Below, piece after piece: positions 4,675 to 52,306 of a stretch of DNA of 64,000 nucleotides. The position numbers and the translations under genes were made by a program. The stretch is from Clostridiales bacterium. GTDB lineage: Bacteria; Bacillota; Clostridia; Christensenellales; Aristaeellaceae. How positions within the stretch are numbered: position 1 is the stretch's first letter; every line of letters starts with the position of its first letter. The stretch is from NCBI GenBank assembly GCA_015056145.1, contig SVGY01000005.1, positions 1-64,000 of the forward strand, in the 5' to 3' direction. The notes beneath the pieces are model-generated. The model did no database searches. It worked only from the letters and a program-made list of their open reading frames with translations, and was not told the DNA's origin.

Positions 4675-4860
4675 GATTGGGAGGCGGCTTTTCAGAGAAA
4701 AGCCCCTCCCAAACCCTCCCGAAAAGCACATTTGGTTTCAGATATAGAACTACCGCATACACCGGGTTGGATGTATGCGGTAGTTTTTTATACTGGTGTA
4801 AACGCTATGTTTTTTGCGGTCTTCTTTTGGTTCTTTTCTTCTGGCTCAGAAGAAAAGAAC
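4675..4860. repeat. Composite intergenic repeat, locus 1 (modules A-B-C, diverged single copy)
   Basis: Between two convergent genes. Module A is a hairpin: TTGGGAG (4677-4683) with CTCCCAA (4706-4712) outside, GGCTTTTC (4686-4693) with GAAAAGCC (4697-4704) inside. Module B is a 14-bp terminator hairpin (4748-4789). Module C is a pyrimidine/purine palindrome (4821-4859) beginning GCGGTCTTC and centred on CTGGCTCAG. The same order occurs at 8963-9371 and 40195-41000, with base changes that keep pairing. Confidence 0.75.
4748..4789 (+). terminator. Strong hairpin terminator (module B of the repeat at locus 1)
   Basis: Perfect 14-bp stem AACTACCGCATACA (4748-4761) with its complement (4772-4785), 10-base loop, then T run. 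It would end the nucleoside transporter operon; the A-rich left side could also act on minus-strand transcripts of the convergent gene. Confidence 0.88.
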
Positions 4861-8962: not shown

Positions 8963-9371
8963 GCGGGAGAAGGCTTTTCCCCGGGAAAAGCCCCCTCCCG
9001 CACCCTCCCGAAAAGCGTATATGGGAAAGGGTATTTTGTGTGAAGAAGAGACTACCGGTTTGCGGTGGTCTCTTTTTGTTTGCCGACTTGGTTGCTAATG
9101 CGGTCTTCTTTTGCTTCTTTTCTTCTGACACAGAAGAAAAGAAGGCCCCCGGCAGGGACAGCAGCGGGGACGTGTAGTGACGGTGCTGGCGGGAGAAGGC
9201 TTTTCCCCGGGAAAAGCCCCCTCCCGCACCCTCCCGAAAAGCGTATATGGAAAAGGGTGTTTTGTGTGAAGATGGGACTGCCGGTTTGCGGTGGTCTCTT
9301 TTTTGTACGCCAACTTGGATAAAAATGCGGTCTTCTTTTGCTTCTTTTCTTCTGACACAGAAGAAAAGAAG
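8963..9371. repeat. Composite intergenic repeat, locus 2 (two tandem A-B-C units, period about 226 bp)
   Basis: Fills most of the 622-base gap before gdhA. Unit 1: hairpin A 8963-9001 (GCGGGAG/CTCCCGC outside, GGCTTTTCCC/GGGAAAAGCC inside), terminator-like B 9048-9077 (GAGACTACCG with CGGTGGTCTC, then five T), palindrome C 9114-9144 (14-bp perfect arms, spacer ACA). Unit 2: A 9189-9227, B about 9275-9304, C 9341-9371. The B hairpin of unit 1 would serve as terminator for yacL. Reading through C on the minus strand gives peptides such as SEEKKQKK, which are not genes. Confidence 0.85.
9048..9077 (+). terminator. Terminator for radA-yacL inside repeat module B
   Basis: Ten-bp stem with one T-G wobble, GAGACTACCG and CGGTGGTCTC, followed by TTTTT at 9073-9077. 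Confidence 0.75.
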
Positions 9372-22439: not shown

Positions 22440-23098
22440 TGTTCTTTTTGTGTTGTTCTTTTCTTTTCTGAGAAAAGAAAAGAACCAAAAGAAAAGCGCA
22501 TTTTGATAGGGTTGGATAGGCATTGTCTGCTTTTACACGCCGGCGGTTTTGCCAACTACTCTTCTTTTCTGAGAAAAGAAAAGAACCAAAAGAAAAGCGC
22601 ATTTTGGCCGGGCGGGATTGGCATTGTCTGCTTTTTCACGCCGGCGGTTTTGCCAACTACTCTCTTTTCTGAGAAAAAAAAGAACCAAAAGAAAAGCGCA
22701 TTTTGGCCGGGCGGGATAGGCATTGTTTGCTTTTTCACCCTGGCGGTTTTGCCAACTACTCTTCTTTTCTGAGAAAAGAAAAAAACCAAAAGAAAAGCGC
22801 ATTTTGATAGGGTTGGATAGGCATTGTCTGCTTTTTCACGCTGGCGGTTTTGCGAACTACTCTTCTTTTCTGAGAAAAAAAACCAAAAGAAAAGCGCATT
22901 TTGATAGGGCGGGATAGGCATTGTCTGCTTTTTCACGCTAGCGATTTTGCGAACTACTCTTCTTTTCTGAGAAAAGAAAAGAACCAAAAGAAAAGCGCAT
23001 TTTGGCCGGGCGGGATTGGCATTGTCTGCTTTTTCACCCTGGCGGTTTTGCGAACTACTCTTCTTTTCTGAGAAAAGAAAAAGAAAAGCGCATTTTAT
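22440..23098. repeat. Seven-unit tandem array, period about 101 bp, related to repeat module C
   Basis: The marker GCGC next to AAAAGAAAA recurs at 22496, 22597, 22696, 22797, 22894, 22995 and 23088 (spacings 101, 99, 101, 97, 101, 93). Each unit has the palindrome TTCTTTTCT-G-AGAAAAGAA, an adjoining ACCAAAAGAAAAGCGC and a GC-rich spacer containing GGCGGTTTTG. On the minus strand each core matches module C of the other repeats over about 40 bases. Units differ mainly in the spacer (GATAGGGTTGG versus GGCCGGGCGGG). Open frames run through it on both strands but are low-complexity. Confidence 0.9.
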
Positions 23099-23109
23099 GT
23101 AACGCAACT

Positions 23110-40194: not shown

Positions 40195-41000
40195 GCGGGA
40201 GAAGGCTTTTCCCCGGGAAAAGCCCCCTCCCGCACCCTCCCGAAAAGCGTATATTTGGGAAGAATGTTTTGTTTGGACATGGGGCTGCCGCTTTGCGGCG
40301 GTCTCTTTTTTCGGGCTGATACAACGCCAATGCGGTCTTCTTTTGCTTCTTTTCTTCTGACACAGAAGAAAAGAAGGCCCCCGGCAGGAAAAACGGCGGA
40401 TTGGCGGTGTTGGCGGGAGAAGGCTTTTCCCCGGGAAAAGCCCCCTCCCGCACCCTCCCGAAAAGCGTATATTGGGAAGAATGTTTTGTTTGGACATGGG
40501 ACTGCCGCTTTGCGGCGGTCTCTTTTTGCAGGCTGATACAATGTCAATGCGGTCTTCTTTTGCTTCTTTTCTTCTGACACAGAAGAAAAGAAGGCCCCCG
40601 GCAGGAAAAACGGCGGATTGGCAGTGTTAGCGGGAGAAGGCTTTTCCCCGGGAAAAGCCCCCTCCCGCACCCTCCCGAAAAGCGTATATTTGGGAAGAAT
40701 GTTTTGTTTGGACATGGGACTGCCGCTTTGCGGCGGTCTCTTTTTTCGGGCTGACACAACGCCAATGCGGTCTTCTTTTGCTTCTTTTCTTCTGACACAG
40801 AAGAAAAGAAGGCCCCCGGCAGGGAAAACGGCAGATTGGCGGTGTTGGCGGGAAAAGCCCCCTCCCGAAAAGCGTATATTGGGAAGAATATTTTGTTTGG
40901 ACATGGGACTGCTGCTTTGCGGCGGTCTCTTTTTTCGGGCTGATACAATGCCAATGCGGTCTTCTTTTGCTTCTTTTCTTCTGACACAGAAGAAAAGAAG
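40195..41000. repeat. Composite intergenic repeat, locus 4 (four tandem A-B-C units)
   Basis: Fills the gap 40167-41045. Hairpin A copies start at 40195, 40413 and 40630 (39 bases each); the fourth is collapsed by deletion of its inner stem (about 40849-40867). Terminator-like module B follows each (unit 1 at 40283-40311). Palindrome C copies are 40346-40376, 40563-40593, 40781-40811 and 40970-41000, perfect 14-bp arms with spacer ACA. Spacings 217, 218 and 189. Near-identity between units suggests recent tandem duplication. Confidence 0.88.
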
Positions 41001-52198: not shown

Positions 52199-52306
52199 CC
52201 AAGACAGCGGGATGCGCCGCATACACCGCACCGGCGGGACCGGTTTCGTTTCATGACAACTCCCCGTTCATGAACACTTAACGCGCGTGCAGCTACTCTG
52301 CCTGAC
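52199..52306 (-). ncRNA. Tetrahydrofolate riboswitch (class I, folE/THF type)
   Basis: On the minus strand the leader carries the conserved THF-riboswitch elements in order: AGAGTAG, GCGTTAAGTG, GGGAGTTGTC, ACGAAA, and GCGGTG...GCGCATCCCGCTG. Closing helix P1: GGCAG with CTGTC (one wobble). P3: TTCATG with CATGAA. The class is known upstream of folT and folate synthesis genes in Clostridia and lowers expression when THF is high. Here it sits between the promoter and the ribosome-site hairpin of folT. Confidence 0.9.

Follow-up and report, generated by a model that had tools for sequence, protein, structure and literature searches.

Mirror-repeat hairpins facing each other across a terminator in an amplified intergenic repeat of Clostridia, and their possible reading as intrastrand triplex elements

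The window (the whole 64,000-nt stretch analysed here, from the start of a contig of a Clostridiales bacterium whose genome is referred to as G000) contains seven A-B-C units in total, two of them in tandem behind a gene encoding a PIN-TRAM protein. The three pieces described in the earlier note, a 39-base hairpin (A), a terminator-like stem with a T run (B) and a 14-bp palindrome (C), were all present, as were the tandem pair at 8963-9371 and the copies announced for 4675 and 40195, the former as a diverged unit and the latter as an array of four (Table 1). The lone module C expected at 22440 proved to comprise six to seven C-like hairpins in tandem, with an orientation opposite to that of the other copies. 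This array has a different spacer; an O-acetylhomoserine sulfhydrylase-like gene lies on one side of it and an M6-protease-like gene on the other. Modules A and C had been seen as a plain hairpin and a plain palindrome; the hairpins were confirmed, and what had been missed is that A and C face inward from either side of B, each with an adjacent third segment in mirror relation to its arm. The scan of the window with Rfam 15 revealed only a THF riboswitch elsewhere (minus strand, 52203-52302, RF01831, 77.5 bits) and nothing above the gathering score in the A-B-C unit. A second scan at a permissive E value, covering the unit and ten loci, gave no match above the gathering score either, and the unit was not taken for a known RNA family.

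Table 1. Positions of repeat modules and arrays in the window.
Feature	Position	Strand	Basis or remark
Unit 1, module A hairpin, arms with 2x2 internal loop	8963..9001	+	39-nt interrupted hairpin
Unit 1, module A third segment, mirroring the 3′ arm except for two skipped internal-loop bases	9002..9016	+	sequence; chain score 12, locus L288
Unit 1, module B, terminator stem preceded by a purine/A tract and followed by a T tract	9043..9077	+	fold
Unit 1, module C third segment, mirroring its arm; hairpin-to-third on minus strand	9104..9112	-	
Unit 1, module C hairpin, perfect 14-bp arms, 3-base loop	9114..9144	-	
Unit 2, module A hairpin, 39 nt, 2x2 internal loop	9189..9227	+	
Unit 2, module A third segment	9228..9242	+	sequence
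Unit 2, module B, terminator stem, then T run	9268..9303	+	fold
Unit 2, module C third segment	9331..9339	-	
Unit 2, module C hairpin, perfect 14-bp arms, 3-base loop	9341..9371	-	
Diverged unit, module A hairpin and third segment	4677..4726	+	
Diverged unit, terminator stem of other sequence in the place of B	4749..4789	+	sequence
Diverged unit, module C third segment and hairpin	4820..4860	-	
Four A-B-C units in tandem, the last with a degenerate A	40195..41000	+	
Tandem array of C-like hairpins, period of about 100 bp, hairpin-to-third on plus strand, several degenerate	22440..23100	+	

Read on the minus strand, module C has a 14-bp hairpin followed by a single C and then by a stretch of purines; this stretch is the arm written backwards, and neither its complement nor its repeat (for example, arm AGAAGAAAAG and third segment AAAAGAAGA). 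The geometry is nearly constant, with a foot of 4-5 paired bases, the single C and the third segment. The 4-bp foot varies freely between copies, and the third segment is unchanged by changes in the foot pairs. The base at the tip of the arm is mirrored in some subfamilies, and not where the loop is AGT. Variants in the genome of a sister species (G016) obey the same mirror rule (arm AAAAAGAAAG with third AAAGAAAAA and arm AAAAAGAAAAG with third AAAAGAAAAA, among others), and distant copies have arms and thirds of their own that are still mirrored (e.g., arm AAAGAAAAAAG with third AAAAAAGAAA), so the rule persists across genomes despite the change of letters.

Among 45 perfect hairpins of at least 9 bp in the window, both strands counted, ten distinct places were of the C-type mirror kind. 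In 253 kb of G000 sequence there were 88 perfect hairpins of at least 9 bp with a mirror third of at least 8 bases, and in 246 kb of G016 sequence there were 108; most of this sequence, and in both sisters the loci other than the window, had been selected for the presence of elements. No C-type mirror hairpin appeared in five dinucleotide shuffles of 504 kb (the window plus the fetched loci), and none of 252 hairpins in 824 kb from 80 named Firmicutes loci had a C-type mirror third. We then pooled 220 purine-armed C hairpins; with the side chosen by purine content alone and the foot offset (3, 4 or 5) picked to favor the mirror, all 8 of 8 positions were mirrored in 204 of them, which represent nine distinct arm/third combinations and 14 genomes. 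When both runs were maximized, the mirror was longer than the direct repeat in 135 hairpins, tied with it in 83 and shorter in 2, and a direct repeat in place of the mirror was rejected on these counts; the two relations are indistinguishable in the 83 ties, which are mostly uninformative self-mirror arms such as AAAAGAAAA. A further short hairpin with a 7-base mirror third was observed 3′ of the PIN-TRAM gene of G016 (L230, position 2772), adjoining an ordinary terminator. In loci L266, L267, L271, L275 and L281 (family f72), a mirror hairpin is followed directly by a second hairpin, GCGGAC...GTCCGC, in what seems to be a larger repeated element.

Module A is conserved within G000, where no covariation is apparent. 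Across relatives its sequences diverge widely, with the third segment tracking the arm, as in G014 (arm AAAAGAAAGG-CCCCTCTCGC, third GCTCTCCCC-AAAGAAAA) and likewise in G762, G721, G152, G761 and G758. The mirror match usually skips one or two arm bases at the switch from pyrimidines to purines. From 48 hits we removed seven without a hairpin by rule and two duplicates, which left 39 unique hits from 19 genomes. In this set, which was found by models whose consensus includes one third segment and in which the choice of strand favored the mirror for 11 of the 48 hits, the mean mirror score was 8.6, in comparison with 5.1 (sd 0.46) after swapping of the thirds and 4.6 for direct repeats; none of 1000 permutations was as high (best 6.6). 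Taking one hit per genome, the mirror values were 9.6 and 5.3 after swapping, with none of 2000 permutations as high (best 7.9). By the exact-block rule 18 of the 39 hits score below 9, some of them owing to one mismatch that breaks the block, and many A thirds read CCCACCC where the mirror demands CCCTCCC. Strong hairpins with a score of 9 or above were absent from the named loci (0 of 226), as against 115 of 300 in G000 and 100 of 283 in the sister genome.

RNA folding of 52 distinct A-C intervals gave, in 45 of them, a strong G+C stem as module B, preceded by an A-rich side and followed by a T run, and in these it has the make-up of an intrinsic terminator (G+C-rich stem, then T run). The seven exceptions are a single weak stem and the A-C arrays that lack B. 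The terminator between A and C is of other sequence in the diverged unit at 4677 and also in units of G016, and therefore it is the position of the terminator that is conserved and not its sequence. The proposal that the units supply terminators to the genes in front agrees with these data, since most units have a terminator able to serve the preceding gene.

When the draft genome (2.77 Mb in 31 contigs) was searched by BLAST with one of its units, 45 near-full A-B-C copies were returned, or 165 matches with partial ones included. The units of G000 are mostly in tandem, with a period of about 225 bp, and arrays of full units were found on seven contigs (C6, C8, C10, C14, C22, C27 and C31); shorter arrays have lost either A (B-C only) or B (A-C only), and the other large contigs sampled carry diverged copies. 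Only diverged copies were seen among those sampled on the 568-kb contig C16, full units being confined to the seven contigs, as opposed to C16 and C25; regional amplification or a mixed assembly are possible reasons for this confinement. A G+C hairpin segment, GCCCCCGGCAGGGCCGCCGGAGGC, was observed after the last C of several arrays (L226, L227, L228 and L060-L063), and is possibly a fourth module common to both sister genomes. The A-B-C order is also kept in G016, with other letters. The earlier note had suggested an amplified unit with conserved module order, and had named copies limited to the window, or no kept order, as results that would speak against it; the 45 units across the genome and the same order in a second species bear the suggestion out, the amplification being lineage-specific.

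The distribution of the modules among genomes was analysed with covariance models. In 17 genomes of the genus, with up to 150 candidates scored in each, the C model gave at least 149 and at least 144 matches in two, one weak match in a third and none in 14, so that abundant C elements within the genus are found in G000 and G016 only. In larger sets it had matches in 14 of 297 genomes of the order and in 7 of 398 of the phylum, this genome being counted each time. The C model thus finds few genomes beyond the two sisters, and the function therefore cannot be general. The A model had matches in 6 of the 17 genus genomes and, at the level of the family, in 24 of 80 genomes and 19 of 50 genera. 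G000 and G016 are probably close relatives, judging from the PIN-TRAM protein encoded before the 8963-9371 array, which is 76% identical between them and 59-67% identical with that of the 14 other genomes that have it.

Elements are located preferentially at gene 3′ ends and rarely between divergent genes. Of the convergent, tandem and divergent gaps, respectively, 26 of 35, 16 of 45 and 2 of 28 had elements in G016, and 15 of 25, 18 of 54 and 2 of 23 in G000; gaps were defined from ORFs by heuristic gene calls, with a minimum of 40 bp, after removal of ORFs shorter than 900 nt that held an element. Unfiltered ORFs placed 43 of 85 and 18 of 107 elements inside ORFs, with spurious ORFs crossing the arrays, and these numbers fell to 10 and 4 after the filter. 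The orientation in tandem gaps (hairpin-to-third with regard to the gene) was mixed, with 20 elements in the same and 12 in the opposite direction in G016 and 12 and 24 in G000. The mixed orientation spoke against a strand-specific role in mRNA and, along with the gap bias, favors a strand-independent role at gene ends. The family-wide contexts, too small to conclude from, were 9 convergent, 16 tandem, 3 divergent, 4 inside and 4 edge for A (n = 36) and 5, 25, 1, 0 and 5 for C (n = 36).

Several known systems share features with this family. REP sequences and BIMEs are short extragenic palindromes that form inverted pairs and tandem arrays at gene 3′ ends, and the window family is like REP/BIME/RAYT systems in all of these traits; A and C, facing inward and repeated in arrays of up to four or more units, are palindromes of alternating orientation in extragenic arrays, as in BIMEs. 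No RAYT was found in the draft genome (94% complete), and the family differs in its third segment, since a mirror relation of this kind is, to our knowledge, no part of the REP definition. REP hairpins have a conserved tetranucleotide at the foot. The BOX elements of pneumococcus are also named as A-B-C modules and vary in module number. As in H-DNA, C contains a perfect purine/pyrimidine mirror repeat; unlike H-DNA, it adds an inverted repeat, so that a single strand can build the triplex, and A is not homopurine.

The PIT or ITxF classes I-IV (Holder et al. 2015, PMC4666352), as presented in the portions of that paper drawn on here, likewise have three consecutive segments on one strand, a hairpin plus a third that binds in its groove, and are repeated, intergenic and patchy between relatives. 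C would belong to class II when read on one strand and to class IV when read on the opposite one, and satisfies the rule for the third segment (purine- or pyrimidine-motif pairing with correct polarity). The criteria given in those portions call for 6-15 triplets in the stem, no more than one mismatch, and loops of 1-6 nt; C lies within them (8-11 triplets, a first loop usually of 3 nt and a second of 5-6 nt including the foot), and A lies outside unless a strand switch and skipped bases are allowed, a switch that the four classes as described there do not include. The window family also differs from the ITxF set, as described there, in that arm and third covary across genomes, in being A/T-rich (C) or mixed with a strand switch (A), and in having two elements that face each other across a terminator and form tandem arrays. 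The E. coli BoxC/TMECO motif of the same paper embodies the same structural idea, and the foot of A, GGGAG...CTCCC, is similar to it in composition; its published pattern had no match in the window and 340 loci.

Duplication gives direct repeats and inversion gives reverse complements, whereas a third strand bound in the groove needs a mirror copy, and for this reason the mirror copies point to a triplex. Purine thirds run antiparallel to the purine strand and pyrimidine thirds parallel to it, according to the portions of PMC4666352 cited above. Because the third segment comes after the 3′ arm, it lies antiparallel to this arm and runs in the direction of the 5′ one; its purines therefore fit the purine motif and its pyrimidines the pyrimidine motif. 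One DNA strand of A or C would thus fold into a hairpin, with the adjacent third lying back in the major groove, its purines binding 3′-arm purines and its pyrimidines binding 5′-arm purines. C is almost pure in purines or pyrimidines. A changes strand half-way, usually with one or two bases skipped, and would use both motifs in turn, as an alternate-strand triplex; chemical work indicates that the junctions of such triplexes favor skipped bases. We consider with fair confidence that the family is structurally one of covarying potential triplexes. The single linker base over a 4-bp foot is tight, and counts against the triplex fit. The E. coli motif, the most closely studied relative, formed a triplex in vitro as a single strand and not as a duplex, and the portions of PMC4666352 used here report no footprint protection in vivo and, from earlier work, no promoter or terminator activity. 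The triplex described in PMC3660596 has, in the part of that article considered, an unusual polarity, and we draw no support from it.

The unit may therefore be described as a terminator placed between two inward-facing mirror hairpins, each of them a potential single-strand intrastrand triplex, a reading for and against which we see the case as evenly balanced. The triplex would form, probably transiently, as the strands part in transcription or replication. A strand-independent structural barrier of this kind might conceivably back up the terminator and insulate converging transcription units; BIMEs have a comparable role at enterobacterial gene ends. The tandem arrays would grow and shrink via slippage or recombination.

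The triplex reading has to be weighed against other explanations of the same repeats. High copy number, inward-facing pairs, tandem arrays, strong lineage specificity and absence from orthologous sites would also be expected of a REP/BIME- or MITE-like element, non-autonomous and either mobile or amplified, which a transposase recognizing single-strand hairpins would move in trans and whose third would be its guide sequence. The empty sites (fetched flanks free of C-type elements at 10 orthologues of the gene preceding the 40195 array, 83-90% identical) are compatible with spread and with in-place gain alike. Y1 transposases were found in 8 of the 17 genus genomes; however, the other nine had no match, and seven of those with a match have no abundant C elements, G016 being the exception. 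A REP-associated tyrosine transposase, the earlier note's candidate mover, was not found in G000 (a draft, 94% complete), whose sole Y1 match (PF01797) is IS200-like in context. We take this gene (G000:C14:27523-27879, L159) to encode an IS200-like TnpA, with ends that we read as other, unrelated-looking hairpins, and a REP transposase as the mover found no support in this draft genome; a C-type mirror hairpin lies about 350 bp downstream. A guide of 9-13 nt that tracks the whole arm would exceed the guide length we know for IS200/IS605, and neighboring elements in a single gap (L066) have different arms, each obeying the mirror rule, which argues against copying from a single mobile master. 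Viral contigs searched with exact element patterns and phages and plasmids searched by BLAST with the two-unit stretch gave no match. Spread by phage or plasmid was set aside on the results of these queries, apart from two partial plasmid matches of L269, one of them a lone self-mirror hairpin of Pusillibacter faecalis, which are uninformative. Amplification, one half of what the earlier note proposed, is clear; mobility can only be conjectured, the REP-type transposase found no support, and we regard the mobile-element explanation as unlikely.

The bias to gene 3′ ends would also suit an RNA element at mRNA ends, in which a pyrimidine-pyrimidine-purine transcript folds beside the terminator into a U.A-U type triplex that shields the 3′ end or helps termination. 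RNA is able to adopt pyrimidine-motif triplexes, as stated in the consulted portions of PMC4666352. In G016, moreover, 39 of 98 elements have on the pyrimidine strand a stem of at least 7 bp whose end lies no more than 4 nt from the third, in comparison with 95 of 600 random positions, and the third can thus act as a terminator U tract. On the other hand, such abutting stems are rare in G000 (3 of 78 elements), a third used as U tract would put the hairpin beyond the end of the transcript, the pyrimidine-first strand is transcribed in only 12 of 32 tandem-gap elements of G016 (24 of 36 in G000), and part of A needs a purine third strand, which according to the same portions does not form in RNA; an RNA role of this kind seems to us quite improbable. 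Much of C is low-complexity purine/pyrimidine sequence, with the many self-mirror arms noted above, and triplex structures of this sort have never been demonstrated in cells, as far as the portions of PMC4666352 used here go. Both points suit a sequence-specific protein site or a plain selfish satellite, whose mirror likeness would come from purine/pyrimidine composition and a conserved flank and involve no triplex pairing. Against this, arms that are not self-mirror carry a mirrored and not a direct third, A has mixed purine and pyrimidine stretches and fails with swapped thirds, hairpins of the named loci never show a mirror third, and a protein on an inverted repeat would not be expected to read a mirror copy alike. 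We give little credence to this explanation.

Returning to the triplex reading in its broadest form, evolution may have maintained, at gene ends in Clostridia of the order and in scattered genomes of the phylum, a class of elements that form DNA triple helices. Some would be natural alternate-strand triplexes whose third strand crosses between the purines of the two arms, and in some lineages the elements would be paired around terminators and amplified into insulator arrays; we consider this a serious possibility, albeit somewhat less probable than its converse. Elements of this kind are known from computation and from one E. coli motif, and the covariation, the strand-switching form and the paired terminator layout are new as far as the searched literature shows, in which no description of the A-B-C unit was found. 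The family bears on whether intrastrand triplexes act in living bacteria, the one motif studied in depth, that of E. coli, being stable in vitro and having neither in vivo footprint nor activity in the portions of PMC4666352 cited above. Covariation among three strands is the type of evidence that established RNA structures, and marks where selection may act on a triplex. Furthermore, function could be tested on the numerous natural variants of the family, with hairpin-only controls to match them, and in a genomic setting where a terminator stands between two elements. The alternate-strand triplex is a design known mainly from chemistry, and A-type elements would be natural examples of it.
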